Source: Chrysochromulina tobinii (lineage: Eukaryota; Haptophyta; Prymnesiales; Chrysochromulinaceae). Taken from it: a DNA stretch of 21,380 bases. Positions 1,814 to 21,380 of this stretch are shown piece by piece. The stretch spans positions 1-21,380 of the forward strand of contig JWZX01002083.1 of NCBI GenBank assembly GCA_001275005.1, read 5' to 3'. Numbering within the stretch: position 1 is the first letter of the stretch; each line of letters begins with the position of its first letter. Made by a program: the position numbers and the translations under genes. The notes under the pieces are model-generated. The model worked only from the letters and a program-made list of their open reading frames with translations, had not been told where the DNA came from and did no database searches.

Positions 1814-1992
1814 GTGATGCCAGGCTAGACCCTCTATTTACATGCATTCAACTTTGCGTTTGGCGTCGTGCTGACGCGTCATTCTTGGAGGTGGATTCCG
1901 TTCCGCATGACAACTTACGCGAAGAAGTCTTCGTCGACAAGTTCTTCGACACCTCATCTTCGTGCACAAGCAGCCCATCCGAGCCGCCCGCC
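1814..1992. promoter_or_regulatory. Short divergent intergenic region (inferred shared promoter)
   Basis: These 179 bp separate the start codons of the minus-strand AKR and the plus-strand selenoprotein. Both genes must be transcribed outward from here, or from inside the neighbour's 5' end. No TATA box is obvious. A small perfect inverted repeat CGAAGA-AG-TCTTCG lies at about 1920-1933. The shared promoter is inferred from geometry only. Confidence 0.4.
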
Positions 1993-2646
1993 ATGCTCGC
2001 GCTCGTACTCGCGCTTGGCCTCGGGAGCACCGACATCAATTGCAACATCTTCGATGAGACGATGGTCTGCGACAACGAGCGTGCGCGGCTGCGCCGCGCG
2101 GAGATTCGCACATGCTCTGGCTGACAGCTCAACCACTACCCGGAGGTGGCGAGCTTTGTGCGCGATACAGGCCAGGCGGACCGCTACAAGGACCTCGAAA
2201 TCAGCTACATCGACCACCATAACCCAGACCTCGTACTCTTCGATGGCTCTGGCGAAGAGGTCCAGCGCATCGACCTCACGCGCATCCGCACGCTCGCCAA
2301 CATCCACAAGTTGCTCACGATGCTTGGGATGAAGGAGCTGTGCCGCGATCTGAACGATTCGTGTGTGGCGTGGAAAACCTCGGGGCAGTGCACCGCCAAC
2401 CCGGGCTACATGCACACGACCTGTCGGGCCGCGTGCGGCCTCTGCTCCGACAACGCGACCGCGGACACGAGTGTCCAGTGCGTGAACGCCAGCCCGGACC
2501 GCGATTGCGAGTATTGGTCCACGATTGGCGAGTGCTCGAAGAATCCTGACTTCATGGGCACGGCATGCAAGCGCTCATGCGGCCTGTGCCAGCCGGACGT
2601 CAAGAGCGACGACGACGACGACGACGAGTTCAAGGACGAGTTGTAG
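1993..2646 (+). CDS. SELENOM: Selenoprotein M-like ER protein with two ShKT domains and KDEL
   Basis: Predicted thioredoxin-fold ER oxidoreductase of the SelM/Sep15 family, 217 residues if the TGA at 2122-2124 is read as selenocysteine. The chosen ATG at 1993 puts a hydrophobic signal peptide (MLALVLALGLG) at the N-terminus; an in-frame ATG at 1885 would add 36 residues before it and is less likely. The redox motif is C41-S-G-U44 followed by QLNHYPEV, matching the SelM CxxU site and its following helix. The fold continues through HHNPDLVLFDG and ends near residue 112. Two six-cysteine ShKT domains follow (C117, 124, 133, 144, 148, 151 and C163, 172, 181, 192, 196, 199), then an acidic DDDDDD tract and C-terminal KDEL, the ER-retention signal. 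SelM proteins are usually about 145 residues, so the ShKT tail is an extension. Read as an ordinary stop, the TGA would split the conserved motif from its fold. No introns are needed. Confidence 0.9.
2122..2124 (+). other. UGA selenocysteine codon (Sec44)
   Basis: This TGA lies in frame between TGC TCT GGC and CAG CTC AAC, giving C-S-G-U-Q-L-N. The frame stays open for 173 further codons with clear SelM, ShKT and KDEL features, so recoding is far more likely than termination. Confidence 0.9.
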
Positions 2647-2859
2647 CGAGACAAGTAAACGACACCACAGTAGGCAACCATAGGCAGAGGCTCGGGCGAC
2701 AAGATGGCGGCAGCAGCGTGCTGGCACTCTTGGCGGCTGCCCGTGCAAAATTCATTCAGTCAGTTACCTTGGTCCAACTGCTACAACTCTTTGCACCTCT
2801 TGGCGGCAGCCCATGAACCGTGCGTTTACAAGGGGGGCACGCGGCAAGACCGAAGATGC

Positions 2860-2953
2860 GCGCACACTTGAGAAGCACATGATGGCTGAGCGCCGCAACG
2901 CACCTAAAATGCGAGGGGCTCAGACGGAGAAGAGCTTTTGTTCAAGTGTGTGC
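2860..2953 (+). promoter_or_regulatory. Candidate form-2 SECIS element in the selenoprotein 3'UTR
   Basis: Starts 214 nt after the stop codon. Helix 1: 2860-2871 pairs with 2942-2953 (twelve pairs with one G-U), continued by GAAGC 2872-2876 with GCTTT 2934-2938. The quartet is ATGA at 2879-2882 facing GGAGA at 2926-2930. Helix 2 includes CTGAGC 2886-2891 with GCTCAG 2918-2923. The conserved AA of the apical region is 2897-2898, 14 nt after the quartet. An extra mini-stem CGCA 2899-2902 with TGCG 2910-2913 closes a CCTAAAA loop, which defines form 2. This is folding by eye; the quartet 3' side is the least certain part. Confidence 0.72.
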
Positions 2954-3423
2954 AGCGTTGTAAGCGTCTCAGACAGACACAGGTTTTGTAAAGCGCTCTC
3001 GGCACTCTCGGCAATTGACTCTCGGAGGACTGGGACGTCCACTTGCGCCCCGGACCCGCGACGCGGTTCCCATGGCGGTTCCGCAATGAAACGAAAGGTG
3101 CTTTAGTTGGCCATGTAGTTGGCGTCCCCGCCCCGGCCGAGGGCCGTCACCTTCGACCTTGCCGAGGGCCTTGCCGCTCAGACGCTGTTTGAGCGCGTGT
3201 TTTGTGTTGTGTACCTGCGTGGGGATGGAGCGAGCGGACGCTGGGTTCAAGTTCAAGTTACTTCATAAACAACAGACAACCTAACGGAAGCCTATCGAAT
3301 GTGCTCTCGAGGCTAGCAGTGGGGGTGAGAGTCGACGGAGATGATGAGACACAATGGAAGGATCACGAACGGGAGGGAGACCAGGAGGAGACACGCCACA
3401 GGGTGCTAGCCTGCGTGCCCTCA

Positions 3424-3567
3424 GTTCAAGTTCAAGTTCAAGTTCAAGTTCAAGTTCAAGTTCAAGTTCAAGTTCAAGTTCAAGTTCAAGTTCAAGTTCA
3501 AGTTCAAGTTCAAGTTCAAGTTCAAGCAGCACTTGAACTTGAACTTGAACTTGAACTTGAACTTGAC
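3424..3567. repeat. (GTTCAA)17 / (CTTGAA)6 microsatellite hairpin
   Basis: About 17 units of GTTCAA run from 3424 to 3526. A five-base CAGCA spacer follows, then about six units of the reverse complement (CTTGAA) from 3532 to 3567. The right arm pairs perfectly with the adjacent part of the left arm, giving a stem of about 36 bp with a very small loop. It sits roughly 100 bp upstream of the LIM start codon. A two-unit relative occurs at 3245-3258. Confidence 0.9.
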
Positions 3568-3668
3568 GCTGCGCGCGAAAAAAGTCGGTACATGTATGTT
3601 TCGGTTTCGGTGGCATGTTTCCAAGTGTGACTCTCTGAAAGTGATCGGCTCGGCGAGTCCGCGAACGC

Positions 3669-5447
3669 GTGCAATACATGGGGGACTCAGAAGAATGGGA
3701 CACGGACCCGGACTTCACGGCGGCCCCCGATCGGCACGGGCAGGGTTCCTCGATGGCCGGCGTGACCAATCCATACACCGAGAAGGTACCAGAGGAGCCC
3801 AAGGGGCCCAGCGCACGGGCGCTTGAGTATGGTGCGGGAGCGGTCGCGGAGAAAGAAATACCCAAAGTGGTCAAGCGCACGACCTCGTTTGGCGGCGGCG
3901 GCGGCGAGAAGTGCACGATCTGCAACAAGACGGTGTACGCTGCCGAGCGTGCCGCTGCGAATGGCAAGCCGTACCACAAGGAGTGCTTCCGCTGCGCCAC
4001 GTGCAACGTCAAACTCACGAACAACTTCTGCGTGGATGCCAACTCAGGCGCGCTGCTCTGCAAGCCCCACTTTATGCAAAATGTGCGGGAGAACCCGGCC
4101 GTGGCGGGCAAGGCCGACTCGGCACGGCGCGAATCGATCATGCCCGTGCCCGAGGAATCGCCCGCGACGGCGCCCGCCCCAATGCCGGCACCAGCACCAG
4201 CACCCGCACCCGCACCCGCACCCGCACCCGCAGCCCCACCCACGCCCGCGCCCGCCGCGCCTGCGGCGCCGGCAGCCTCGCGATTCGGCGGCGGTGGTCA
4301 AAAGTGCGCGCGCTGCGGCAAGACGGTGTACGCGGCCGAGATGGCGACGGCACAGGGCGATATGTACCACAAGGACTGCATGCGATGCCTCACATGTAAC
4401 GTGAAGCTCGGTGGTCAGTACTGTGCCGACGCCAACGGCGGCCTCTTCTGCAAGCCGCACTTCGTGCAGGGGCTGCGTGCGAGCGGTGGCAAGTACGACA
4501 TGAGCGGGGACGCCTCCTCCGCGGCCGACAAGGCAGCAACGGACGAAGCGGCGGCGGACAAAGCGGCGGCGGAGAAAGCAGCAGCCGAGAAGGCAGCGGC
4601 TGACAAGGCGAAGGCGGAAAGAGCAGCAGCCGAGAAAGCAGCGGCCGACAAGGCGGCGGCTGACAAGGCGGCGGCCGAGAAGGCAGCGGCCGAGAGGGCG
4701 GAGGCCGAGAAGGCGGCGGCGGACAGGAAGGCGGCCGAGAAAGCAGCGGCAGACAAGGCGGCGGCGGAGAAGGCAGCAGCCGAGAGGGCGGCGGCCGAGA
4801 AGGCAGCAGCTGAGAAGGCAGCAGCTGAGAAGGAGGCAGCGGCCTTGGCAGCAGCGGCTGCCGTGCGCGCTGCCGCGGTCGCGGCAGTGCCCGCAGCGCC
4901 CCCACCCGCGCCTGCGCCCACGGCGGCGCCAGCCATGCAGAATGGGAACGGAACCCATTCGACGAAACAGACGAAACTCGATGCGACGTGGCTGCGATCG
5001 GCGTCGTCGCCAAGGGAAGCGGAACAGCGAGGAGCGCTACTGGCCTTCATGCAGGTGAGATCTCCCTTGATCTCCCTTGATCTCCCTTGATCTCCCTTGA
5101 ACAGCGAGGAGCGCTACTTCATGCAGGTGAGGGTGCCACTGAGTGCCACTGAGTGCCACTGAGTATCACTAAATGCCTCTGATTATCACTGAGTGCCACG
5201 GATTGCGTGCCTGTTCTTACCTTTGCGCAGCGCGAGCAGCTACGGATCTCCCTTGATCTCCCTTGATCTCCATTGATCTCCATTGATCTCCCCTGATCCC
5301 CCTTGATCCCCCTTGATCTCCCTTGAACAGCGCGAGCAGCTACGGGTCTCCGATGTGCTTCGGCTCGCCGCGGGGCTGCTCGACAATGAGGGGAAGCTGT
5401 CAGAGTTGCCTAATATGGATCTGCCCGGTCAGCCCTCATACGTCTGA
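3669..5447 (+). CDS. Two-LIM-domain protein with Pro-Ala rod and EKAAA helix
   Basis: Predicted zinc-binding LIM adaptor of the CRP/paxillin-like kind, probably acting in actin or scaffold complexes (family inference). Two exons, 3669-5054 and 5331-5447, phase 0, give 500 residues; an ATG three codons in (3678) is an equally good start. LIM1 ligands are C82, C85, H103, C106 and C109, C112, C131, H134. A Pro-Ala rod spans about 169-203. LIM2 ligands are C213, C216, H234, C237 and C240, C243, C261, H264. Residues about 285-395 are a near-uninterrupted pentad repeat AAAEK/AAADK, expected to form one long charged alpha helix. A PA-rich spacer follows, then a tail REQLRVSDVLRLAAGLLDNEG ending in PSYV. 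The two LIM domains are similar, suggesting an internal duplication. The intron is complex (separate entry), so the exact junction near residue 462 is the main uncertainty. Confidence 0.85.
5055..5330 (+). repeat. LIM-gene intron: nested decamer blocks with both exon edges duplicated
   Basis: GT-AG intron of 276 bp. A first block of CTTGATCTCC decamers (5057-5098) is followed by a copy (5099-5131) of the last exon-1 bases and donor (5022-5059). Next comes a middle section with GTGCCACTGA decamers ending in TTTGCGCAG. A copy of the exon-2 start (5228-5245) follows, then a second CTTGATCTCC block, then the real exon-2 start (5328-5345), exactly 100 bp from its copy. It reads like an older intron with a decamer block later added at each edge. 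Confidence 0.8.
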
Positions 5448-5903
5448 CGAGGAGCTGTGAAGACTATATGGTTCAGATGCTGAAGACCCAAGCTGGTGGT
5501 GCGAGTGGGAGGGAACTGGGGGGGTGGCAGGGAGAGGGGAATGAGGGCAGAGGAGTCACGATGGCTCCCTCTCTGCGCGCTCTGGGTCAGAAGGCGAGCG
5601 CGTGTGGACTGAGAGAGGAGCGACGTGGCGATGGTCGGGGGGGCGGAGGAGGATGTGACGGGGTAGGAGGCAGGGCCGCGCGCGCTAACGAATCGGAGAT
5701 GGAGATCTCCCTTCCGTTGTGCCGTTTGTGGGGTCCGGTCAGGACACACTGTTCGGTTACGAAATCGTTCATAAGCGCTCTTGTGGAAACACGAGACGTG
5801 TGTTTCACGCCAGGGTGAACATGTGTTTCACAACCAAAGTTTAGAATTTCACAGCAGTAGCGCGCGGCGCGGGAACATCTCGGGCGCCCACCGACCGCAA
5901 CCA
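5448..5903. other. Intergenic region upstream of POLD1, G-rich
   Basis: No gene seen. The plus strand at 5507-5547 has five or more runs of three or more G with short spacers, a possible G-quadruplex; further G runs lie at about 5637-5685. Near 5800-5835 TGTTTCAC occurs twice close together. The last part must contain the POLD1 promoter and 5'UTR. Confidence 0.5.
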
Positions 5904-8900
5904 ATGCCACCCACGTTCAACAAGCGACCTGCGGACGGCGGCGGGAGCGCGGACGCAAAGCGTCCAGCGCGCCCGCGCCCGGACGATGACGACGACGAAG
6001 GCTTGGACGCGGATGAGATGATCGAGGAGGAGGAGGATCTCATGATGGAGGACGGGATGCTGCCGATGCCCGAGGAGGATGAGCCCCTCGTACTGCTCGG
6101 CCAGGCGGACATGGCGAAATTCGAGCGCGAGTGGCGCCGGCCACCGTTGCCGGCTCTTGACCCGGCCGTCGACAGCATCGACTTCCAGCAGATCGAGGCC
6201 GACTACTCGAACGTGCCGTCGGCGCCCGAGTTCGCGCGCGGCAGCACCGAGCCCAAGGAGGCGGTGATCCGCATCTTCGGCGTGACGCAGGGCGGGCACA
6301 GCGTGTGCGCGCACGTGCATGGGTTCAAGCCCTACTTTTACGTGCGCGCGCCCGCCGGCTTCACCAAGGACGGCGTCCCCGGCTTCAAAGCAGCACTGAA
6401 GGCGCGCCTCAAGGCTGCGTTACCGGCCAAAGATGGGCAGCAGAGTGAGTGCGTGCTGCACTGCGACACGGTGACGCGGCAGTCCATCATGCACTACGCG
6501 TTCAAGGAGTCCGCCACCTTCATCCGGATCGTCGTCGCGCTGCCCACGATGGTCGCCACCGCACGCCGGTTGCTCGAGCAGGGCCTGCCGCTCCCCGGCA
6601 TCGGCTCAGTGACCTTCGAGACGTTCGAATCGAACTGCGTGTTTGTGATGCGCTACATGGTGGACCGCTCGATCGTGGGCTGCAACTGGCTCACGCTGCC
6701 CGCCGGGACCTGGCGGCAGCGCGGCGCCCTCAGTGGCGGCAGCGACGGCGACCCGGGCGGGAGCAGCGGCGACGCGCCGAAGCCAGCGACACACTGCCAG
6801 CTCGAGATCGATATCTGGTTCGCAGATGTGATCTCTCATCAGCCCGAGGGCGAGTGGATGCGGATCGCGCCCATGCGCATCCTCTCCTTCGACATCGAGT
6901 GCTCGGGGCGTCCCGGAATCTTCCCGGAACCGGAGAAAGACGCGATCATCCAGATTGCGAACCACGTGACGCTGCAGGGCTCCACCCAGCCCGTCCTCAA
7001 GAACATCTTCTGCCTCAAGGAGACGGCGCCGATCTCGGGCGCACAGGTGCTCGCTTTCGAGACCGAGGCTGAGATGCTCCGCTCGTGGCACCAATTCGTG
7101 CTCGCATGCGACGCCGACATCCTCACGGGGTATAACATCGGCAACTTCGACCTCCCATACCTTCTCGGGCGCGCCGCCACGCTCAAGATCGGCTCGTTCC
7201 CATATTTGGGTCGCGTCAAGGGGATGGTGACCAAGGTCAAGGAGAAGATGTTCCAGTCCAAGCAGACGGGCTCGCGGGAGATGAAGGAGATCAACATCGA
7301 GGGGCGCGTGCAGTTCGACGTGATGACGGTCCTCATGCGCGACTATAAGCTCTCCTCCTACTCGCTCAACGCCGTGTGCGCTCACTTTTTGGGCGAGCAA
7401 AAGGAGGATGTGCACCACTCCATCATCTCGGAGCTGCAGGTGATGACCTCTGATGACCTCTGATGACCTCTGATGACCTCTGATGACCCCTGATGACCCC
7501 TGATGACCCCTGATGACCTCTGATGACGTCCATCATCTCGGAGCTGCAGGCGGGCAGTCCCGAGACCCGCCGGCGCCTCGCGGTGTACTGCCTCAAGGAC
7601 GCCTACCTGCCGCAACGGCTGCTCCAGAAGCTCATGTGCATCATCAACTACGCCGAGATGGCGCGCGTCACGGGCGTGCCACTCTCCTACCTCCTCACGC
7701 GTGGCCAGCAGATCAAGGTCATGTCGCAGCTCTATCGCAAGGCCAAGTCGCTCGGCCTGCTCTTACCGGTTTCGTCACGCAAAGGGGCCGAGGGCGAAAA
7801 GTTTGAGGGCGCGACCGTCATCGACCCTATTAAGGTGAGTGTGAATGCCCACGATGGCGCCTTCGATGGCGCCCCTGATGGCGCCTCCGTCTGCCACTGA
7901 CTGGTGCGACCGCCCTCGACCCAAATTAGGGCTTCTACCCGGACCCGATCGCGACGCTTGACTTCGCTTCGCTGTACCCGTCCATCATGATGGCACACAA
8001 CCTGTGCTACTCGACGCTCGTGCGCCGCTCCGAGTTAGGCAAGCTCAACCCCGACGAGTATGGCAAGTCGCCCACGGGCGACTGTTTCGTCAAGGCGTCC
8101 ACCCACAAGGGCATCCTGCCGCAGATTCTCGAAGAGTTGCTCACCGCTCGTAAGAAGGCAAAGGCCGACATGAAGGCGGAGAAGGCCAAGGGGAAGGACT
8201 TCGATCCGCTCACCTATGCTGTGTACGATGGGCGTCAGCTTGCACTCAAGATCTCGGCCAACTCCGTCTACGGCTTCACCGGCGCCCAGGTGGGCCACTT
8301 GCCTCGAAGTGTGCATGCATGCATGCATACATGGGATGGGTGGGCCACTTGCCTCGATGTGCTTCTCATTGCCTCTCATTGCCTCTCTCATTGCCTCTCT
8401 CATTGCCTCTCATTGCCTCTCATCGCGGCGCACAGGTGGGCCAATTGCCATGCCTTGAGATCTCGTCCACGGTGACCGCGTATGGTCGCCAGATGATTGA
8501 CGACACCAAAGCACAAGTCGAGTCTCACTTCAACCGGGCCAACGGTTACGAGCACGACGCGATCGTGGTCTACGGAGACACCGACTCGGTCATGATCAAG
8601 TTCGGCACGTCGGATCTGGGTACGTCAATGAAGCTTGCCCAGGAGGCGGCCGACCGGGTGACGAAGACGTTCCTCAATCCCATCAAACTCGAGTTTGAAA
8701 AGTGCTACCACCCGTACCTGCTCATGAACAAGAAGCGATACGCTGGCCTCCTCTGGACCAATGTGGAGAAGTACGTCTTGAGTGCATCTGGATTGCATCT
8801 TGATTGCATCTGGATTGCATCTTGCGTGCATCTGGATTGCATCTGGGCCCCGTCTGAAGAGTTCTGATTGCGCACATCATCAGGTACGACAAGATGGACT

Positions 8901-10007
8901 GCAAGGGCATCGAGACGGCGCGCCGTGATAACTGCCAGCTCATCCGCGAGATCATGGACACCTCCCTCAAGGCGATCCTGATCCACTCTCGCCCCGACCT
9001 AGCGGTCGCGTACGTCAAGCAGCAGATCTCGATGCTCCTCATGAACGAAATGGACATGTCAAAGCTCGTGATTACCAAGGCCCTTACGAAGACCTCCGAC
9101 CAGTACGCTGTGGGGAACAAGCAAGCTCACGTCGAGCTCGCCGCGCGCATCAAGAAGCGAGATACGAATCTCGCGCCCAAGGTGGGCGACCGCGTGCCCT
9201 ATGTGATGATCAAGGCGGCGAGCGGCGCGAAGGCGTGGGAGAAGGCTGAAGATCCGATCTACGTGCTTGAGAACAACATCCCGCTCGATACGGACTGGTG
9301 GGCTGATGGCGGCTGATTGCGATGGATTGCGATGGATTGCCCAGGGAGTACAGGCGCCAATCCAGACGACCTCTGATTGCCTCCCTCATCAGTACCGGCT
9401 ACAGACGCCAATCCAATTGACCTCTGATTGCCTCCCTCATCAGGTACCTCTGATGGCCTCGGATGACCTCGGATGACCTCGCGGATGACCCCCGAGTGCC
9501 TCCCTCAGTGCCTCCCTCATCAGCGGATGACCCCTGAGTGCCTCCCTCATTAGGTACATGGAGCACCAGCTGCAGGAGCCCATCAAGCGTCTCTTCGAGC
9601 CTATCCTGCCCGACAACCTCGACTCACTCCTCAAGGGAGACCACACTCGCAAGATTAAGAAGGCGATGCCCACCACCGGCGGCCTGATGGGCTTCGTCGC
9701 CGTCACGCAGCGCTGCCTCGGGTGCAAGGCATCCTTGCCTGCAGGCGCGCCGACGACCGAGGGTGAGGCGGCCCTCTGCGCTGCCTGCAAGCCCAACGAA
9801 GGAGACGTCTACCTCGCGAAGCTGCAGCAGCACGCGAACTGCGAGAGGCTCTATTGGCAGTGCTTCGTGCAATGCCAGCGTGTCACGGGCGGCAGCTATC
9901 AAGACATCATCGGCATCGCGCGCGATTCCCCACTGTACATGCAGATGAAGAAGGCGCAGAAGGACCTCAAGGAGGCGCGCGAGATGCTCGCCCGCTTCGG
10001 CGTGTGA
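5904..10007 (+). CDS. POLD1: DNA polymerase delta catalytic subunit, six exons
   Basis: B-family replicative polymerase with 3'-5' proofreading; the main lagging-strand enzyme in the nucleus. Exons 5904-7439, 7550-7834, 7930-8289, 8436-8770, 8884-9297 and 9554-10007 keep frame and give 1127 residues, close to the 1107 of human POLD1. The start follows an untranslated leader and opens MPPTFNKRP with basic and acidic tracts. Exo I is FDIECSG (D330, E332), Exo [14 protein letters not shown] (D416), Exo [12 protein letters not shown] (Y525, D529). Polymerase motif A is DFASLYPS (D618), motif [10 protein letters not shown] (from 714), motif C YGDTDS (D775, D777). CysA is intact (C1030, C1033, C1051, C1054). 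CysB is abnormal: only C1083 of the four expected iron-sulfur ligands is at its usual place. The ending MLARFGV resembles the family end. Five introns, most rich in decamer repeats. Confidence 0.95.
7440..7549 (+). repeat. POLD1 intron 1: eleven decamers, 110 bp
   Basis: The clearest decamer intron. It starts GTGATGACCT and continues with CTGATGACCT or CTGATGACCC in phase, nine decamers in all. It ends with a copy of the last 21 bases of exon 1, so 7419-7440 and 7529-7550 are identical 22-mers 110 bp apart. Removing it joins SIISELQ to AGSPETRR. Each unit offers a CTGAT/CTGAC branch-site-like core and pyrimidines. Confidence 0.9.
7835..7929 (+). repeat. POLD1 intron 2 with GATGGCGCC repeats
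   Basis: A 95-bp intron with a textbook GTGAGT donor and a TTAG acceptor. It contains three copies of GATGGCGCC about 12 bp apart, a relative of the decamer but less regular. No exon-edge duplication is obvious. Splicing joins DPIK to GFYPDP just before polymerase motif A. Confidence 0.8.
8290..8435 (+). repeat. POLD1 intron 3 with CTCATTGCCT decamers and exon copies
   Basis: A 146-bp GT-AG intron. It begins with GTGGGCCACTTGCC, a near copy of the exon-4 start GTGGGCCAATTGCC, and repeats it at about 8340. It ends GGCGCACAG, a near copy of the exon-3 end GGCGCCCAG. Between are ATGCATGC alternations (about 8312-8328) and six CTCATTGCCT-type units. Splicing gives [17 protein letters not shown], the conserved junction after motif B. 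Confidence 0.85.
8771..8883 (+). repeat. POLD1 intron 4 with CTGGATTGCAT repeats
   Basis: A 113-bp GT-AG intron in phase 2. The sense strand carries about five copies of CTGGATTGCAT, an 11-bp variant of the decamer, and ends CATCATCAG. Donor and acceptor are both followed by GTACG, a minimal edge duplication. Splicing gives [12 protein letters not shown]. Confidence 0.8.
9298..9553 (+). repeat. POLD1 intron 5, longest decamer intron
   Basis: A 256-bp GT-AG intron in phase 2. It contains GGATTGCGAT units at the 5' end, then two tandem copies of a roughly 60-bp segment, each ending CTGATTGCCTCCCTCATCAG. CGGATGACCT units and more CCTCCCTCAT copies follow. At least three internal CATCAG or CATTAG sequences mimic the real acceptor at 9551-9553, so alternative 3' sites are plausible. 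Splicing gives DTDWYMEHQL. Confidence 0.85.
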
Positions 10008-10198
10008 GCTCGCGATCTGGAGCTCGAGCTGGAGCTCGCAATCTTGAGCTCGCGATCTGGAGCTCGAGCTGGATCTCGCAATCTGGAGCTCGCGATCTGG
10101 AGCTCGAGCTGGAGCTCGCGATCTGGAGCACGCGATCTGGAACTCGAGCTGGAGCTCGCACGAGGCGAGATGCGCGCCCGCTACGGCGCGTGTGGAGG
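10006..10198 (+). repeat. GAGCTCG satellite after POLD1, flanked by copies of the coding end
   Basis: Units GAGCTCGCGATCTG (14 bp) and GAGCTCGAGCTG (12 bp) alternate from the stop codon to about 10169. The block is flanked by a diverged duplication: the last coding bases (about 9972-10005, GAGATGCTCGCCCGCTTCGG) recur at about 10166-10192 (GAGATGCGCGCCCGCTACGG). This has the same repeat-between-copies plan as the introns. Confidence 0.8.
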
Positions 10199-10675
10199 CA
10201 GCCCGTGGGCGGTGCGAGAGGCGGTGCGAGAGGCGGTGCGAGAGGGGCGTTGGCGGCGTTGGCCACGGCCGCCGGCGGCGGCGCGGCAAGTGGATTGCAA
10301 CCCGCCATGGCGGGCGCGCCAATACGCCCGGCAGCTCGCAAGTCGCTCTCGCGAGCACAGGAGGCGAGCCGAGTGGGGTAAATATTTGTGCATGGACCAT
10401 GGTGGCATGAACAGGAGGATGTCGTGCGGCCACGCCCACACGGACTTACACGGACTTTACACGGACCTAAAGGGACTTAAACACGGACCTAAAGCACTGT
10501 AAAATTCCGCGATCTTTGGGGGACTGAAGATCGGGCTCAGACTACAGACTTCACGACTAAGAAAAGTCACGTCATGGACACGGTAAAAATGTGACAGACT
10601 GACACCCGTGACAGGACGTGGGCTCGCATATAAACGGGAAAAAGTTGCCCCTTGGCGAAATTCTCGTTACTCGTT
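10199..10675. other. Intergenic region between POLD1 and the retrotransposon
   Basis: No gene seen. Small tandem repeats: GGTGCGAGAGGC three times at about 10209-10245, and an ACACGGAC(C/T)TA-type repeat at about 10437-10495. POLD1's 3'UTR and polyadenylation site should lie here, but no signal stands out. Confidence 0.5.
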
Positions 10676-13800: not shown

Positions 13801-13961
13801 ACGTCCAGGCGACACAGCCACGATGCTTCGCCACCTCGTGGTTCCTCCGCGCTGTCGATGTCACAGAACACTAGGGTCACCCTGTACCCCCCACCTTGAC
13901 AGGCTGAGTGCCAGTGCCGATCGCGCCGCTGCGCGCTGAGAGGTGTCCGCGACGTCCGCAA
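10842..13961 (-). CDS. Retrotransposon 3' frame: RNase H and chromodomain-like protein
   Basis: A 1039-residue frame overlapping the end of the RT frame by about 100 bp, in the +1 register. Residues about 150-292 are an RNase H domain: D158 in YTLDGG, E203 in YIAELAAQ, D228 in IIVFDATS, then H277 and D287 in SHVGEPVNEWVDV, so the D-E-D-D set is complete. RNase H would degrade the RNA strand after reverse transcription. The middle is Arg- and Ala-rich without a recognised domain. Residues about 932-992 look like a chromodomain: RWAVRRIAAVRRHEG, then VLVEWEG, then LWEASW, with aromatic residues at the three expected cage places. Chromodomains target LTR chromoviruses to modified histones; one on a LINE is unusual. 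The ATG at 13961 may not be used: translation could come from the upstream frame by slippage at a G6 run, or the split may be a one-base mutation. Confidence 0.85.
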   Translation of the reverse strand: MRTSRTPLSAQRRDRHWHSACQGGGYRVTLVFCDIDSAEEPRGGEASWLCRLDVDDQGFLAGWMERACEMRARFQFDAAGYLCSRDGARLELQQLAQLDPAVQLVARARLALGDVEVLPGDGIKRQATHVQLSAQRCLWEKLTTWSARIKATRIYTLDGGWREVKTDNGATKIATRAAIDHEGRVLGGRICEEDVNEDNYIAELAAQLDALTDATSRGTEERIIIVFDATSPVRAMLRFGRLSARARGDRLAAELLEHFERLRRRVAALVLIWQTSHVGEPVNEWVDVMCDTFGVDDDYPVPRGKIAFASITFPDHKGPAQAYAMNGMSRVVAQRLRGRVQDTILRDPDEHVQLLGMTPEAHQICDEIAARRCQYVDQPYAELRARRVLAAEWCPFGCTDHEGRWREIHSSAVARRRVLQIPGLANLIATQLSAQPGATCEISAQDQAALGGGAVRAGDAVGWQGRWFALAERPPTWWHFQFECTGAPLLAARKAYALAAVAARRCMVSLQKGRELVPHSQLDDLILLIHQGMNGWEAEDRAIGSAAQQQSLRNRIQRGITEAWETEWLRAGAAGAVRLSGSGADTNVRWRLALTEMVLSGCRLQKLGKENCAEGRRAFWGRLGDLRLLGKIFTAWSRALTLTTARRAAALRDLRSAREFVTQVTTGERRRLRKEVERRLAMVDDEQADDAPGEWLRLRAWLAWRMMLAQGLGRSGRRIVHGPARDSLREQLLEGSTGRQQEVPRAREGVATLRARQRLAWRRWLRTGGWAAFDRCLCKRERIKRNRALAAQREGMRRWACMADGTRWLILTEAETEERFELRHEGLRALLELKQVLSAGEWKALGIRNLRLGHFIRVGQLFYGPEQVLSCHTLSGQEASEVGDTVMIEIEPRRDPQRVKRRRQEVQRARRAVRQRVAMGPVIAGQEADDGGRWAVRRIAAVRRHEGRRGRPLDVLVEWEGEDSDGDLWEASWVSVTYLSKDLRDEARKLEGELFGARGAQAPSRRAARRDEVRQRQERERERMQWSSRLRDRARGALV

Positions 13962-16900
13962 GGGCTCTGGTGAAAGCCACGTAGAAAGAGGCGCAACTGA
14001 TCGCCCACAGGTGCCGTCGACCTCCTACCGCACCACCCCCGCCCTCATACAGCAAGCACGATGGCGTAGTCGCGTCTCGTCGCGCTTTTTTGTTGAACAT
14101 TCTCCTCCACTCCTTTTCGATATCTTCCATCCACTCGAAGGGGTAATACACTGTGCTGCATTTGAAACCCGCAAGCCCCTGGAAGAGCCCATTCGTGACC
14201 AAGACCATGTCACCTTGCGACGGTTTGTGCATACGGGCCACGCGCCCAATTGCAACCCTGAGCTGTTTTTTGAGCGAGTCGCGCGCCGCCCCATCTCCGC
14301 CCATGGCAGCGCGAAGAACGCCCAAATGCTTGTAGGCCTCACTCCGCGAAAGAACCGGCACGCGAGTACCGTCGAGTGTGATTAGCTGCGGATCGGAAAT
14401 GTCAGTTTCCCCCCCCTGCTCATCTCGACGCACGCCCGTGACCACCGTCTTTAGCTTGCCTTTAATGCCCAGTTTCGAACCGGAAATCGGAACCCAGACG
14501 CTCCATATTGCCCAGGCCCGCCTGAGATCCGCCTCACTCCCAAACGTCCCGGCCCAATCGTCCGCGTATGCGAGGCTTGCAATCGCTCGAATGCATCCCT
14601 CCTCGTCGTCCCCGAAACCAAAGAGCTGCACCCCGTGAACGTGAAGTTTGATGGCCCACAGAACTGAATTGAGGAAGATTTTCGCTCTGTCGGGAGAGAG
14701 AACCTCCCCCATGAGCGCCCCCATGTGGTTCCTGAAGGAGGCGCTGAGTCCGATAGAGGTATCGAACTGACACTCAACCGCCTCAGCCGCAACGGCTCGC
14801 CCTGCGCCGTAAATTTGTCCGACTAACTCAATCACCTGCGGCGGCAAACCTACAAGAGCCTCGGCGACCGTGAGAGCTTCCCGGTCAATACGCGGAAAGA
14901 ATGTCGCCAAGTCGACATAGAGTATCCATAACGATTGTTGCAGCCTTTCCGCCTGCTGAATCACCGCAGCTAAGGGAAGCCCGGCGTCGACTGTACCATA
15001 CCCTGGCAGCCATCCGCATTGTTCCGACCGCAGTCTGCCCGTAATAAGCCGATACGCTGTAGCCCGTACCATGTGCATGACAAGCTTCATGTCCTGCGCC
15101 ATCAGCGCAATCTCCCTTCTTTCGGAGATAAGCGCCTGATTGTTGGGAGGCGGCTTCGCGAGCAGTACATAGATGACCTTCCGCCACGATGGCGGGAAGT
15201 CGCCTCCCTGCAGATCCGCCATGAGGCAATCATAGAACGCTCTCTTGACTTCGCGATCTGAATGAATGAGGAGCTCGATGGAGAAGCCGCCATACCCTAC
15301 TGCCTTTCCCCTTGGCACCCGTTTGAGCACCTGAAGAAAGACAGGGAACGTGAGCTCCTTGACTAGCTCCCACTCGCCGCCATCTCTCCCTCGTAAAGTC
15401 TCGTAGGTTGGACAGAATACGTTGCAGAACGCCTGAAAAGCCTCGAGGATCGGCGGAGTGGACGCAAAGCCTTTGACGAGTCTGTCTCCCTCCCGTGCGA
15501 GCCCACGTAGAAAGGCGTCCGGATCCTCCGCCGCGAGCACCGGTGCACTGCGTACATCATCCTGCGGATGAAACCGGTCAAACGCAAGGCTAGTACGTCG
15601 CGGGCGGATTGCCTCCCACGCTCTCATTGCCACGTGCGCTAGGTCCTTGCTTCCCTTGCCCTCGACGATGCCCAGCGACAGATCCCGGAGTCGCTGATCG
15701 TCCCGTTGTTGCCTGCGCACCAATCTCCGGTTCGCGCTCGTCCAGCATTTTCGGCATCGCTTGATGATCTTGGCCCAGCACACGTCGTCTCCTGCTCCCT
15801 CGTACCTCGCTCGAATGAGCCAGAGGCGTGAGTGGTAATTGAAGAGACCCCCGTGCACATCGTGCGGCGACAGGCCCCGATGTCGAGCCGCGTAGGCCTC
15901 CTGCAGCCATCTGCGCCATCTATGAGCCGTCTCTAGAGGCCGTTCCTGACGGCGCTTCCTTGCCTCCGCTGCCGCCTGTTCCGCCACCCTTCGCAGTCGC
16001 TGCACCGCAGCGGATGTGGCGTGTACCGCGCCTTGCGCCGTGAGAATGTCCTCCAGTACATCCCCTTCCCGCACTCGATCCTGGTATTTTTTCTTGACGC
16101 GCTCATCGCCACGTGGCAGTGCCGAGCGCGGTCGTTGTTCGCCCCTGAGCTCCAAATCCAGAATTTCTCTTGAGAACGTGACCCACGCATGATCTGACAG
16201 TGATTTCGTCGTGTTTGCTTGATTGTCGGCGAAATCCACCACTGTCCGTCGCCAAAGTCCACATTCGGCCCCTATCATCACGGCACCATCGATCATGGAG
16301 CCATATCCATCCAAGTTGTTCACCTCTGCAACGTTGCCACCCTTCCGTGTCCAGACTATCAGCGGCTTCGAAGCGATCGGCGGGACGTACTCCACCCCCG
16401 GCTGCGAGATGTAATCTCTGAACAGCCGATCGTTGGCCGTCAACGCCGTGTGCGATGACCGCCACGCCTCATCCGCCACGTAATTGAAGTCACCCACCAC
16501 GAGGCAGCCCTTAACAGCCTGAGATGCGTCAGTCGCCCACAAGTATGTGGCCTGCAGCTGTTTCTCAAAGCTTGAGGAGCCACCGTGATGTAAGCCGTGC
16601 ATCGCTGCAATCCGCGTGTGAAGCTGCTCCATCTTCGCACGCCCTCTGATCCATACGCCGAGCACCCTTTCCTCGAGTCGTATGTACCGCTCAATGCTAC
16701 ATGTCGCCTGTTTGACGAGCACGGCAATACCATTGGTGAAGGAGTCGCCACTCTGCAGCTGCTCGCGCTGACTGCCACCCTCTCCCACGATCCAACGTGC
16801 GACGTAGCCGATCTTTTTTGCCAATGCGCGCAGCCCGTAAGTCTCCGCCGTGAACGCCTCCTGTGAGCCCATTACCTCCAGTAGAAAGCAGACGTCAACG

Positions 16901-17709
16901 TCCTCCTCCTGTAAACGCCGCATGATCCACTGCATCTTTGCCCGTGATGCCTCGCGCGTAGGGCCCGCTTCGGCATGGAGCTCTCGTGCATTCCAGAGCA
17001 CAACGTTGAACATTTCAACCACTGTGTTCCCGCGAAGCGCACGCATCCGCCTCTTCCATTTCTTCCTGCTAATGTGCCATCGAAGCCGTCGTCTCCGTAT
17101 GCTGTCCAAGTTCGCCGGTACGCTGTGCATACGACTCACCGTCCATCGTGGCTTCGGAGCACGTTGCGACCGCGGCATGCGAACAGTCTCAATAGGCCCG
17201 CCTCCTTGCCGCCCATGCGTCTCTGGATCTGGTCCCATTTCCACCCGAGACTGAGCTTGACGACTTGGCCCATCCCACCTCGGACTCGGTTCAGGCTCAG
17301 GTTCGAGTTGCTGAGCCGCAACCGGAGATGGTGTTGGCTCGAATCTGTCGCCGAGAGCCTGCACACAGCTCCAAAATGTGTGCCCCCCGTCCTCGCAACC
17401 CGTCAGCCGATGCGCCATCTTCACCATTTGCATGTTCCCAGGGTCTTGCCGTGCTCCGTAGCACTGCAACACGGCTGTATCATAGCAACGTATTGCCCCC
17501 GCGTCATCGCGCCGTATATCCAACGTCGTGCAGCAGCGCGCAGCGCTCGCATCGCATTGCGGGACGAGGAGGGCGAGCGCCAGGATCGTCACATGGAGTG
17601 CTCGTGTGAATGGCCGACTTATCGCAGCGTCGCCAAACTTGCCTTGCCCATCTCGGCGCGCCCTCGATGACTCTCGAGTTTTGACCGAGTTTTGACGCGG
17701 CTGTATCAT
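13861..17709 (-). CDS. Retrotransposon endonuclease-reverse transcriptase
   Basis: A 1282-residue frame from the first ATG inside the element; the frame is also open further upstream, past the element's edge. Residues 38-51 are strongly hydrophobic and followed by a Cys-rich stretch (seven Cys to about residue 115), then basic linkers. Apurinic-type endonuclease: NVVLWNAREL near 235, the catalytic Glu in FLLEVM near 278, GDFN 406-409, YGSMIDG near 469-475 and SDH 505-507. It would nick the target for target-primed reverse transcription. Reverse transcriptase: GKAVGYGGFS near 801, motif A YVDLATFF near 931, a divergent motif B LMGEVLSP near 999 and motif C YADD 1048-1051. The frame stops shortly after the thumb region, just past a run of six G (plus strand C6 at 13887-13892). 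All catalytic residues are present, so the enzyme could be active. Confidence 0.9.
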   Translation of the reverse strand: MIQPRQNSVKTRESSRARRDGQGKFGDAAISRPFTRALHVTILALALLVPQCDASAARCCTTLDIRRDDAGAIRCYDTAVLQCYGARQDPGNMQMVKMAHRLTGCEDGGHTFWSCVQALGDRFEPTPSPVAAQQLEPEPEPSPRWDGPSRQAQSRVEMGPDPETHGRQGGGPIETVRMPRSQRAPKPRWTVSRMHSVPANLDSIRRRRLRWHISRKKWKRRMRALRGNTVVEMFNVVLWNARELHAEAGPTREASRAKMQWIMRRLQEEDVDVCFLLEVMGSQEAFTAETYGLRALAKKIGYVARWIVGEGGSQREQLQSGDSFTNGIAVLVKQATCSIERYIRLEERVLGVWIRGRAKMEQLHTRIAAMHGLHHGGSSSFEKQLQATYLWATDASQAVKGCLVVGDFNYVADEAWRSSHTALTANDRLFRDYISQPGVEYVPPIASKPLIVWTRKGGNVAEVNNLDGYGSMIDGAVMIGAECGLWRRTVVDFADNQANTTKSLSDHAWVTFSREILDLELRGEQRPRSALPRGDERVKKKYQDRVREGDVLEDILTAQGAVHATSAAVQRLRRVAEQAAAEARKRRQERPLETAHRWRRWLQEAYAARHRGLSPHDVHGGLFNYHSRLWLIRARYEGAGDDVCWAKIIKRCRKCWTSANRRLVRRQQRDDQRLRDLSLGIVEGKGSKDLAHVAMRAWEAIRPRRTSLAFDRFHPQDDVRSAPVLAAEDPDAFLRGLAREGDRLVKGFASTPPILEAFQAFCNVFCPTYETLRGRDGGEWELVKELTFPVFLQVLKRVPRGKAVGYGGFSIELLIHSDREVKRAFYDCLMADLQGGDFPPSWRKVIYVLLAKPPPNNQALISERREIALMAQDMKLVMHMVRATAYRLITGRLRSEQCGWLPGYGTVDAGLPLAAVIQQAERLQQSLWILYVDLATFFPRIDREALTVAEALVGLPPQVIELVGQIYGAGRAVAAEAVECQFDTSIGLSASFRNHMGALMGEVLSPDRAKIFLNSVLWAIKLHVHGVQLFGFGDDEEGCIRAIASLAYADDWAGTFGSEADLRRAWAIWSVWVPISGSKLGIKGKLKTVVTGVRRDEQGGETDISDPQLITLDGTRVPVLSRSEAYKHLGVLRAAMGGDGAARDSLKKQLRVAIGRVARMHKPSQGDMVLVTNGLFQGLAGFKCSTVYYPFEWMEDIEKEWRRMFNKKARRDATTPSCLLYEGGGGAVGGRRHLWAISCASFYVAFTRALADVADTSQRAAARSALALSLSRWGVQGDPSVL

Positions 17710-17904
17710 AGACAAAGACTCGACACATAGTATGCCGCCTAATAGTATGCCACCTAATGCCCCCTTCGACGCGGTATGGCCATGGTTCTCGACCGCGTCT
17801 GAGACCCAAGAGACCTCCGATGCGCTCTCATCTAAGCCCGGCGTGCTCGGACGCTCTCCGCCGGCGCTGCACTTCTGCCTCTGCGAGACAGGCTGTTCCC
17901 CGTG

Positions 17905-17917
17905 AATGAGCAAAAGT
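17905..17917. repeat. Target-site duplication, 5' copy
   Basis: AATGAGCAAAAGT, identical to 10676-10688, at the 5' boundary of the minus-strand retrotransposon. Confidence 0.75.
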
Positions 17918-18297
17918 TCTTCCGGACCAATATAGGAAATATAGGAGATTATAGGACCCAAGGAAAAGCTACCCGACCCCCACCCCTATGATGAGCAGAG
18001 ATGCCTGCAATGAGCGCAGTTGGCTCCTGGCCCGCCCGCGAACAAGAACCCTAAACCACAAAGCTCAAATACTCACATATATTACTCACACATGCACAGT
18101 TCTCAGTTGACGCATCTCTTCACCCTGTGCAAAACCAACAGCATGGACGGCGCATCCGTGTACATGCAATCATCAATCACCATCTGCTCCTCCACCCTCT
18201 GCCATTCCACAATCGTCGTACCCAACATGTACGTCGATTGCGCATGGACACCGCGCACGGAGAGCCCAGACGCTGTTGGGTGTCCGCCTCCATGCTC
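17918..18297. other. Intergenic region between retrotransposon and WD40 gene
   Basis: No gene seen. It holds a small ATAGGA(AA/GAT)T repeat near 17931-17952 and an A/T-richer stretch around 18050-18110. It is the 3' flank of the minus-strand WD40 gene and should contain its 3'UTR. Confidence 0.5.
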
Positions 18298-21200
18298 TCA
18301 CATCACCTCGAGGTGGTACAGCTCCCCTGACTGCGCGCCGGCAGCAATCCTCGGCCAACTCACAGCCACACACGAGATCGGACTCGGCGCATAGAATGCG
18401 CCACCCCCGTCCTTCATGCGAATTGTCGAGCCATCGCGCACCGCACCCTCGGCCTCTTTGCTGAAGGCCACGCCTGGACGCGAATCGAGCAGGTTGAACG
18501 AATCTGCATCCCAGACTTTGATCGTCTGGTCATCTGATCCAGACACGATCATGGTCCCGTCCGGGGAAAAGGCGACCGACCTGATGCAGTGGCTGTGGGC
18601 ACTCGTCTTCTCGCTCAGCAGCCCCAGCGCGCCTGAAATACAAGCCAGCAGGCGTCACTTTTGGCCAATGAGAGGCAATTTTGTGGACTCCGGCGCACCC
18701 GATTCCCAGACTTTGATCGTCTGGTCCCACGATCCCGACACAATCTTGCTCCCATCCGGGGAAAAAGCCACCGACGTGATTGACTCGCTGTGGGCGGCCA
18801 CCGACGTGATTGACTCGCTGTGGGCGTTCATCTTCTGGCTCAGCAGCTCCAGTTTGTCTGCCAGGCAAGCCAACAGGCGTCAGTTTTGGCCAAGGAGGGG
18901 CAATTTTGACTCCCCGGCGCACCCGAATCCCAGACTTTGATCGTCTTGTCGTCCGATCCCGACACAATCTTGATCCCGTCCGGGGAAAACGCCACCGACC
19001 TGATGAAGTCGCTGTGCGCGTTGGTCTTCTCGCTCAACAGCTCCAGCCCGTCTGCCGGACAAGCCAACAGGCATCAGTTTTGGCCAAGGAGGGGCGATTT
19101 GAGGGTTGGGTTCCGGCGCACCAGATTCCCAGACTTTGATCGTCTTGTCGTACGATCCCGACACAATCTTGGTCCCGTCCGGGGAAAACGCTACCGACGT
19201 GATCTCGCGGCTGTGGGCGTTCGTCTTCACGCTCAACATCTCCAGTTTGTCTGCCAGACAAGCCAACAAGCGTTAGTTTTGGCCGAGGAGGGGCGATTTT
19301 GAGCTTGCGGCGCACCTGAATCCCAGACTTTGATCGTCCCGTCGTCCGATCCAGACACGATCTTGATCCCGTCCGGGGAAAACGCCACCGACTGGATGAA
19401 GTCGCTGTGGGCGTTTGTCATCTCGCTCAACAGCTCCAGTTTGTCTGCCAGGCAAGCCAAATGGCGTCAGTCTTCGCCAAGGAGGGGCGATCGAGGCTCC
19501 GGCGCACCAAAATCCCAGACTTTGATCGTCCTGTCGTATGATCCCGACACAATCTTGGCCCCGTCCGGGGAAAATTCCACCGATGTGATGACTTCGCTGT
19601 GCGCGTTCGTCTTCTTGCTCTGAAGCTCCATCTTGCCTGCCAGACAATCCAACAGGCATCAGTTTTGGCCAAGGAGGGGCGATTTTGAGCTCGCGGCGCA
19701 CCCGAATCCCAGACTTTGATCGTCATGTCGCGCGATCCTGACACAATCTTGGACCCGTCCGGGGAAAACGCCACCGACGTGATGGCCTCGCTGTGCGCGT
19801 TCGTCTTCTCGCTCAGCAGCTCCAGTTTGCCTGACAGACAAGCCAGCAGGCGTCAATTTTGGCTAAGGAGGGGCGATTTTGAGGGCTCCGGCGCACCCGA
19901 ATCCCAGACTTTGATCGTCTGGTCATCTGATCCAGACACGATCATGGTCCCGTCCGGGGAAAACGCCACCGACTGGATCCAGTCGCTGTGGGCGCTCGTC
20001 TTCTCGCTCAGCAGCTCCAGGTTGCCTGCCAGGCAAGCCAGCATGCGTCAGTTTTGGCCAAGGAGGGGCGATTTTGAGGGCTCCGGTGCACCCAAATCCC
20101 AGACTCTGATCGTGAAATCGTGCGATCCCGACACAATCTTGGTCCCGTCCGGGGAAAATGCCACCGAACTGATGAAGTAGCAGTGCGCGTTTGTCTTCTC
20201 GCTCAACAGCCCCAGCGCATCTGCCAGACAAGCCAGCAGGGGTCAGTTTTGGCCAAGGAGGCGTGATTTTGAGGGCGAAGCACACACCAGAATCCCAGAC
20301 TTTGATCGTCTCGTCGTCTGATCCCGACACAATCTTGGTCCCGTCCGGGGAAAACGCCAACGACGTGATGTTGCTGCTGTGCGCGTCCGTCTTCTCGCTC
20401 AACAGCTCCAGTTTGTCTGCCAGACAAGCCAGCAGGCGTTAGTTTTGGCCAAGGAGGAGCGATTTTGGACTCGCGGCGCACCCGAATCCCAGACTTTGAT
20501 CGTCTTGTCGCGCGATCCCGAGACAATCTTGGTCCCGTCCGGGGAAAACGCGACAGAGAAGATCCTGCCGCTGTGGGCGTTCGTCTTCTCGCTCAGCAGC
20601 TCCAGCTTGCCTGCCAGACAAGCCAGCAGGGGTCAGTTTTGACCAAGGAGAAGTGATTTGAGGGGCAAAAGCGCACCCGATTCCCAGACTTTGATCGTTC
20701 CGTCCTCGTATCCCGCGGTGATCAAGCCTCCCTGCTCGTCCTCAAAGACGGCCACACTCTTGACGTCGCTTGTGCCCTCGAGCTCCTTGAGGAGCTCTTC
20801 AGAGTCCGCGTCGTACACGTACACCGTCTTCCCCGCGCCGCCCACGATGCGCGTCGACGAGACGGCGACCGACCACACGCTGCCCTCGTGCGCAAAGGTG
20901 GCGACGCACGGGTCGTCGGTCAGCGGTTTGTTGCGCCACATGACGAGGCGCTGCAGCGGCGCCCTCTGCAGCAGGTCGAGGACGACGCTCGTCTGCGGCT
21001 GCTGCAGTGCGAGTTGCGCGACCGCCTTGCCACCCTCGCGCTGCAGGACGCTGCGGTAGCGCCCGACAAAGCGCTTGAGCCTCGGGTACTCTGCGGGCGC
21101 GCCGGCGGCCTCGGCGACAATCGGCAGCCACGCACTGGGGAGGCCCGCGTGCGCGAGCGCGGTCACCAGGCACGCGCGCCACCCCTCGCCCATCACGCCA

Positions 21201-21380
21201 CCAAGGCCCGCCGCCTCCACGAAGCGCTCGCCAAAGGCGTCGCCCTCCTGCACACCCATGAGCACAGCGTTCGTCCACCACGGGTCGCCCATGCGGAAGT
21301 TGGCAAGGGCGCGCCCGCTGCCGTCGGCCAGCGCGCGCATCGCGTAAAACTCCTGGAACGAGAGGTGGAAGGCCTGCATC
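18298..21380 (-). CDS. NACHT-like/WD40 receptor, 3' part, twelve exons in the window
   Basis: STAND/NLR-like sensor whose N-terminal NTPase lies beyond the right edge. The first exon in view (from 20677 rightward) has [14 protein letters not shown], typical of the C-terminal end of NACHT modules, then a helical region and two diverged WD repeats. Ten single-repeat exons follow on the minus strand: 20610-20482, 20416-20288, 20220-20092, 20025-19897, 19830-19702, 19636-19508, 19444-19316, 19250-19122, 19051-18923 and 18857-18699. The last exon, 18632-18298, carries one typical and one diverged repeat and ends YHLEVM. Internal exons are 129 bp (43 residues, pattern [31 protein letters not shown]) except one of 159 bp. 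All introns are 63-71 bp, GT-AG and phase 1. About fourteen blades in total would fit two seven-bladed propellers. Such propellers act as ligand sensors in STAND proteins; the ligand is unknown. Confidence 0.9.
18699..20676 (-). repeat. Ten tandem exon-intron units of about 195 bp (one WD repeat each)
   Basis: Each unit is one WD exon plus one intron of about 65 bp. Units repeat every 190-198 bp, apart from one of 227 bp that holds a 30-bp internal duplication. Introns resemble each other as closely as exons do: most share a CCAAAACTGACGCCTGCTGGCTTGTCTG-type 3' half, including a CTGAY branch-site-like core. The whole unit, not just the coding part, has therefore been duplicated or homogenised. 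Confidence 0.9.
18767..18826 (-). repeat. In-frame 30-bp tandem duplication inside one WD exon
   Basis: 18767-18796 and 18797-18826 are identical. It adds ten residues ([10 protein letters not shown] twice), making this exon 159 bp instead of 129. The insertion would lengthen the first strand region of that blade. Confidence 0.95.

Follow-up and report, generated by a model that had tools for sequence, protein, structure and literature searches.

A WD40 exon-cassette array in a putative NLR-type receptor gene of the haptophyte Chrysochromulina tobinii and its genome-wide family of diversified repeats

At one end of contig JWZX01002083.1 of the haptophyte Chrysochromulina tobinii lies the 3' part of a gene with eleven highly similar WD40 repeat units, a candidate receptor of the NLR type. 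The window, by which we mean the whole 21,380-nucleotide stretch that was analysed, is this entire contig (C1004), in a genome of 53,154,812 bases in 2253 contigs. The receptor gene is on the minus strand, as are all of its parts described below: it enters at the contig end (position 21380) and ends at 18298, with a TGA stop codon at 18298-18300. A first visible exon is followed by ten unit exons and then by a terminal exon that opens with unit 11, and eleven phase-1 GT-AG introns of 63-70 bp separate them. The array scores far above chance as a tandem repeat (TRF score 2416, period 194). The first visible exon (20677-21380), which is open at the contig end, would encode a post-NACHT-like helical segment, a helical linker, and two divergent WD blades, as judged from the WD40 family of Pfam and from homology to the post-NACHT segment of paralogs with ankyrin repeats.

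Nine of the units occupy a 129-bp exon each. In order of transcription, and with their variable residues in context, they are unit 1 (20482-20610; HSGR, RDK), unit 2 (20288-20416; HSSN, DDE), unit 3 (20092-20220; HCYF, HDF), unit 4 (19897-20025; HSDW, DDQ), unit 5 (19702-19830; HSEA, RDM), unit 6 (19508-19636; HSEV, YDR), unit 7 (19316-19444; HSDF, DDG), unit 8 (19122-19250; HSRE, YDK), and unit 9 (18923-19051; HSDF, DDK). Unit 10 (18699-18857; HSES, WDQ) contains an in-frame 30-bp tandem duplication at 18767-18826, which brings its exon to 159 bp. The terminal exon (18298-18632) consists of unit 11 (HSHC, DDQ), with no intron downstream of it, and an NLR-type tail that ends in LYHLEVM before the stop codon. 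Introns 1 to 11, all in phase 1, lie at 20611-20676 (66 bp), 20417-20481 (65 bp), 20221-20287 (67 bp), 20026-20091 (66 bp), 19831-19896 (66 bp), 19637-19701 (65 bp), 19445-19507 (63 bp), 19251-19315 (65 bp), 19052-19121 (70 bp), 18858-18922 (65 bp), and 18633-18698 (66 bp). A preliminary description of the window had listed eleven residue pairs after HS and eleven pairs flanking the Asp of GSxDx, and all of them were correct when the units were read again. Its statement that each repeat is its own 129-bp phase-1 exon holds for nine of the eleven, the exceptions being unit 10, with its longer exon, and unit 11, which opens the terminal exon.

That the units are coding follows from the lengths of their exons together with the selection on them. 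The test of exon length does not depend on a reading frame, as introns were located with a DNA profile on the DNA fetched from across the genome. Of the 120 exons that lie between consecutive introns, 118 are a multiple of three in length, 110 of them being 129 bp, and the two exceptions measure 128 and 131 bp; the 164 full-length introns, by contrast, are spread over the three possible classes of length (79, 50, and 35). Diversity at first and second codon positions of the repeat framework is 0.038, compared to 0.199 in introns. The earlier reading of one repeat per exon is supported. A database relative, P0052, aligns in one reading frame along the helical linker and the units that follow it (59% identity, 433 residues); a second aligned segment pairs its C-terminal tail with that of the window gene. 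The exon chain of the window therefore probably encodes one protein. A protein search with the spliced product was swamped by matches to generic WD40 proteins. An Rfam scan of the window returned nothing at gathering scores. For the NLR form, the count of blades comes to 14 or 15 and is not settled between the two values: the two divergent blades are joined by 11 units and by one or two blades that may be present in the tail. We therefore do not claim for this form the double propeller proposed for HET-E.

The NLR label for the window gene, which had been given in the preliminary description, rests on homology. A C-terminal repeat sensor, the WD40 array, is present, and the first 172 nt of exon 1 are 74-77% identical to the segment that follows the NACHT-like domain in three ankyrin-repeat paralogs, with a weaker likeness that continues to about residue 95. 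In each of these paralogs (C1434, C883, and C1206), a NACHT-like domain is succeeded by a segment like window exon 1 and then by ankyrin repeats; the NACHT scores are partial and, at 23-25 bits, just below the cut-off of 26.7. Beyond the start of exon 1, the linker and blades of the window gene resemble instead those of P0052 and of another type, in which an NPHP3_N domain scoring 102-105 bits lies upstream of such a WD array on the same strand (C145, C1908, and C1123). Judged by these similarities, the window gene appears to be a hybrid between two kinds of NLR. In C145, Pfam reported NPHP3_N (1.3e-27), NACHT (2.5e-6), and the APAF1_C helical domain (3.1e-6). Its NLR part has relatives among the NPHP3_N/NACHT proteins of Prymnesium parvum, with 51% identity across 71% of the query, and of C. 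tobinii itself, with 67% across 30%; among the named matches, the one between its NACHT part and Triparma is more distant (34%). Two P. parvum models differ from the genes described here in having only a few WD units and no visible homogenised array. At E 0.001, Pfam reported no HET domain in C145, which is partial, or in the two P. parvum relatives. Across the C. tobinii genome, 27 of 34 NACHT matches are above the cut-off. In control searches, the cut-off was also passed in 5 of 14 prokaryote genomes for NPHP3_N and in 3 of 14 for NACHT, so single weak matches to either family mean little.

Two further observations concern these NLR genes. The ankyrin repeats of C1434, C883, and C1206 (L003, L004, and L005) are, by eye, also nearly identical to one another except for a few changing residues, and they perhaps constitute a second hypervariable repertoire. 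Moreover, between the NACHT and helical regions of two Prymnesium proteins (P0140 and P0141) there is a RelA/SpoT-like stretch with matches to PF04607 that fall below the cut-off (6.3e-5 and 1.8e-4); in C145 (L069:2939-6295), it was seen by eye only.

The cassettes are not confined to the window. A genome search with one 195-bp unit gave at least 230 matches, those of its own array among them; this figure is a lower bound because only the best candidates were scored. Among the matches listed, at least 35 contigs are represented; the DNA of 31 was scored and contains 203 units at 50 bits or more, of which 189 have the standard length and no stop. Two main types of gene share these units. The NLR type is recognised by its C-terminus (DSFNLLETRPG...LYHLEVM), for which there were 11 matches, nine of them over at least 68 of 70 residues. 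The second is a smaller propeller gene whose first unit starts with LIN or something similar and which ends in a 48-residue tail; this tail was matched 29 times, on 28 contigs, and 28 of the matches are nearly complete. On those 28 contigs, there was none of the genome's 34 NACHT or five NPHP3_N matches. The NLR label for the window gene has support by homology only, and the pool of cassettes, with 29 smaller-gene tails versus 11 of the NLR type, lies mostly outside NLRs.

The smaller genes are regular in their architecture. Among the 21 whose start was fetched, seven units is the usual number (17 genes); three genes contain five units and one contains six. Fourteen combine an ATG with GT-AG introns at every expected place, and for 12 regular seven-unit genes the predicted length is 352-357 residues. 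Their ATG directly follows a sequence resembling a splice acceptor (TTCGCAG-GATG), and so an upstream exon is possible. The conserved block upstream of the ATG keeps, by eye, no single reading frame among paralogs, for which reason the ATG is treated as the start. At the search sensitivity used, the 48-residue tail had six relatives among 5.8 billion proteins, and it had no significant match in Pfam (best E 0.23). Several loci have other arrangements. Four units at about 16000-16921 of C2164 (L033) combine the start of the smaller type with the tail of the NLR type and form a natural hybrid, and seven units at 25829-27117 of C1350 (L075) belong to a third kind of protein context, flanked by Ala-rich sequence. 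Two arrays of similar spacing on C492 (5294-6256 and 12541-13696) may reflect a recent segmental duplication. A scan of viral contigs found one distant WD40 relative with 37% identity.

Within a unit, variation is concentrated at five codons, and most of the rest hardly vary. Among the 189 units from 31 contigs, codons 14, 15, 17, 33, and 35 have 14, 20, 16, 16, and 13 residue types, with entropies of 3.10, 3.86, 3.22, 3.44, and 2.27 bits, respectively. The next most variable are codons 1, 4, 42, 3, and 10 (1.88, 1.80, 1.66, 1.51, and 1.29 bits), and codon 16 has 1.05 bits. Mean pN is 0.586 at the five hot codons versus 0.052 at the other codons of 11-42, and the 189 units have 180 distinct five-residue signatures. 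The residue after PDG (codon 26) had also been described as variable, which is true within the window but not genome-wide, where its entropy is 0.57 bits over the same units.

These differences were set against a neutral standard: selection was measured as diversity relative to the introns rather than by a likelihood codon model. At first and second positions of hot codons, diversity is 0.61 (contig bootstrap 0.589-0.625), compared to 0.199 in introns (0.185-0.210), a ratio of 3.07 with a 2.5% bootstrap bound of 2.85. Third positions of the framework are as diverse as introns (0.195). The introns are uneven, with 0.318 in about the first 20 columns and 0.127 in the rest. The eleven units of the window gave a similar result on their own (0.562 at hot codons vs 0.181 for nine of the eleven introns). 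This threefold excess points to diversifying selection on the five codons. The top-face residues of a propeller are free of many fold constraints, and one could therefore imagine that the hot positions are unconstrained surface residues of recently amplified repeats that have experienced no positive selection. Diversity well above that of neutral introns makes such a relaxation extremely unlikely, given also that framework third positions evolve like introns. We give equally little credence to a targeted mutator that rewrites the five codons in the manner of a diversity-generating retroelement or somatic hypermutation. Variability that is extreme and sharply bounded, with 20 residue types at codon 15, is what such a mechanism might be expected to leave. 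However, third positions of hot codons are less diverse (0.40) than their first and second positions, and the synonymous diversity of two-fold residues is ordinary on average (mean 0.140 at hot codons and 0.119 at framework codons, with codon 17 highest at 0.312), which favours selection on residues over a mutational hotspot.

The hot codons fall where a binding surface would be expected. In the available text of PMC3419727, the positions R1-2, R1, and D-1 of WD40 repeats are given as contact residues of the top face, and by that rule codons 15, 17, and 33 correspond to these three positions and are predicted top-face hotspots. The rapid diversification at a predicted binding face that the preliminary description had proposed is supported by this pattern. 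The diversified propeller pool could serve recognition of a non-immune kind, such as mating, cell-cell allorecognition, or the selection of many targets by adaptor proteins, with the NLR genes as a side branch. The preponderance of smaller-gene tails (29 vs 11), a tail with six database relatives and without a significant Pfam match, and the role of the fungal proteins HET-D and HET-E, which are the closest in codon pattern and act in allorecognition, all lean in this direction. Yet entropy at the hot codons is nearly as high in NLR-type units (2.96, 3.31, 2.73, 2.71, and 2.17 bits; n = 39) as in the others (3.06, 3.87, 3.26, 3.53, and 2.21 bits; n = 138). In addition, the 27 NACHT matches above the cut-off suggest an NLR repertoire, though some may be other P-loop proteins, as the prokaryote controls indicate. 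On balance we regard the non-immune alternative as unlikely, but it deserves to be taken seriously.

Units from different arrays are scarcely more different than units from the same array. Framework nucleotide identity is 0.880 within arrays and 0.877 between them (162 units). Units that hold the same position in different arrays are no closer to each other than expected (0.138 vs 0.151 when shuffled; 97 units in 17 arrays), which argues that arrays have not been copied whole with their order kept. Linkage between sites is lost over very short distances. In a set of 147 units, 14 common sites with two alleles have a mean r2 of 0.192 when 1-10 nt apart, 0.016 when 11-30 nt apart, 0.010 for 31-60 nt, and 0.006 for greater distances, against a level of 0.007 for unlinked sites; five of these 14 sites are in codons 1-4 and dominate the short distances. 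When 38 two-allele sites were used in the same units, the values were 0.197, 0.043, 0.010, and 0.008, and without codons 1-4 they were 0.208, 0.058, 0.010, and 0.008. The correlation of r2 with log distance is -0.54, which none of 2000 permutations reached, and all four allele combinations occur in 635 of 703 pairs of sites. With linkage gone beyond about 30 bases, sequence seems to be exchanged genome-wide, and the decay fits short-tract conversion among the units of the whole genome. In a search with the intron, the best 40 of 169 candidates were scored and all 40 were on contigs with unit arrays, so there is no sign of the intron as a free mobile element.

Two other histories could produce a family of this kind. 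In a single burst of amplification, followed by independent divergence and no continuing exchange, one would likewise expect no positional structure and almost no structure by array. We judge it very unlikely because linkage decays with distance and because four combinations are found at most pairs of sites. Alternatively, mixed strains or chimeric joins in the assembly might have created the apparent diversity and shuffling. There is a precedent: according to the accessible part of PMC12222747, Illumina assemblies could not reconstruct such WD40 arrays in Podospora. However, 77-mers recur at only 1.4% of positions in the fetched arrays, and none is repeated in the array of the window. Chimeric assembly can hardly explain decay within 30 nt when shared 77-mers are so rare, and exactly seven units in 17 of 21 smaller genes would be an odd product of misjoined reads. 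We consider an assembly artefact about as improbable as the single burst.

Adjoining the receptor gene, an open reading frame at 13861-17961 on the minus strand has an Exo_endo_phos endonuclease domain and an RVT_1 match just under the cut-off, and thus resembles a non-long-terminal-repeat retrotransposon. On the plus strand are a DNA polymerase family B exonuclease domain at 5781-7463 (E 4.6e-59) and an open reading frame with a LIM domain at 3669-5090. The left half of the window (688-10503) contains many tandem arrays of hexamers and decamers, including a perfect AGTTCA array at 3423-3526.

Among known systems, the closest counterpart is that of the fungal HNWD genes of Podospora anserina (het-d, het-e, and het-r), which, as far as the available literature describes them, encode NACHT-type proteins with highly similar WD40 units that evolve in concert between loci. 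Very high identity among units is found here as well (framework 0.88 within and between arrays). The likeness to HET-E and HET-D, which had been noticed from the window, turns out to be quantitative. In the available text of PMC1805685, the four strongly selected codons of Podospora are 7, 9, 25, and 27, which flank conserved codons 8 and 26; the spacing is identical to that of codons 15, 17, 33, and 35 here, which flank Ile16 and Asp34. For 69 units, that source counts 55 combinations at its four codons, compared to our 180 in 189 at five. Codon 14 is hot here in addition, and the same text mentions further, less strongly selected positions in Podospora. There are also clear differences. Each unit is its own phase-1 exon in C. 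tobinii, and the introns have been homogenised too. Units tend to cluster by locus in Podospora, judging from the portions available of PMC1805685 and PMC2873952, but hardly do so here. Furthermore, most of our arrays are in smaller genes with no detected NACHT domain, no HET domain was seen (the N-terminus of the window gene is off the contig), and the lineage is a distant one.

A second parallel is with the ROCO-LRR candidate immune receptors of brown algae, for which the available text of PMC11378527 reports exons that each hold one repeat and share the same phase, shuffling of these exons, positive selection at sites of the binding face, and repeat-only genes that are maybe a reservoir. 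One repeat per exon in uniform phase is also what we observe, but the sensor is WD40 rather than LRR or TPR. According to that same text, the brown-algal genes have phase-2 exons of 72 bp, a ROCO GTPase core, and alternative splicing; brown-algal NB-ARC-TPR receptors are likened here through their citation in it only. Nearly identical units also occur in prokaryotic highly repetitive WD40 proteins, as portrayed in the accessible parts of the sources (PDB 2YMU; PMC5587647); in 2YMU, 14 repeats match. The likeness to these prokaryotic genes concerns the identity of their units. The genes of C. tobinii combine traits of fungal NACHT-WD40 proteins with those of exon-shuffled brown-algal receptors, and we file them under neither, because their units hardly cluster by locus, unlike those of HNWD, and because their sensor differs from that of the algae. 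Among the papers listed in the literature searches, which covered few subscription journals, none described a haptophyte NLR repertoire or such an array.

Taken together, our results are best explained by a recognition repertoire, in which the window gene represents the 3' portion of a receptor of the NLR type whose cassettes are mixed by gene conversion and selected on their binding face. We consider this explanation probable. The sensor would be a WD40 propeller domain built of interchangeable exon-intron cassettes, which are distributed among a handful of NLR-type genes and some 28 smaller genes for propellers, most of these with seven units. Short-tract conversion between the cassettes of many loci would keep the framework and introns alike while dealing out variants, and diversifying selection on five codons per blade would alter the top face. 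That face may bind variable proteins, whether of a pathogen, a parasite, or a non-self cell; in the NLR form, binding might release oligomerisation of the NACHT domain, whereas the smaller form could act as a sensor, an adaptor, a decoy, or a donor of cassettes. The cassettes, conversion as the mixer, and selection on the binding face are based on tests of the sequences. The parts given to the NLR genes, as the signalling form, and to the smaller propellers, along with any service to immunity and a role of the window gene in recognition, are something we infer.

Several observations weigh against this explanation. The contig ends at base 21380 before any NTPase, so that the NTPase of the window gene lies off it, and in most arrays no signalling domain was seen. 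Seven of the 21 smaller genes lack a GT-AG intron somewhere one was expected. Exchange is not perfectly free, as the nearest neighbour of a unit is in the same array in 8.6% of cases versus 2.9% by chance, and recurrent mutation could contribute to the low level of linkage. Finally, unit number and order in such arrays can be affected by misassembly, as the Podospora case in the accessible part of PMC12222747 illustrates. A more ambitious version of the recognition repertoire, which we put forward only tentatively and would not yet bet on, has a single genome-wide pool of some two hundred or more cassettes, each flanked by introns and near linkage equilibrium, that feeds both the NLRs and the roughly 28 smaller genes; conversion would then drive an anticipatory repertoire, with the smaller genes as its reservoir and soluble arm.

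If the recognition repertoire is real, C. tobinii would represent a free-living phytoplankton cell with a hypervariable, combinatorial receptor system. Because the introns between units are homogenised along with them, the genome contains its own neutral control, which makes both selection and gene conversion directly measurable. That the selected codons coincide with the fungal ones points to a single structural solution, the top face of the WD40 propeller, which has been reached or kept in distant eukaryotes.

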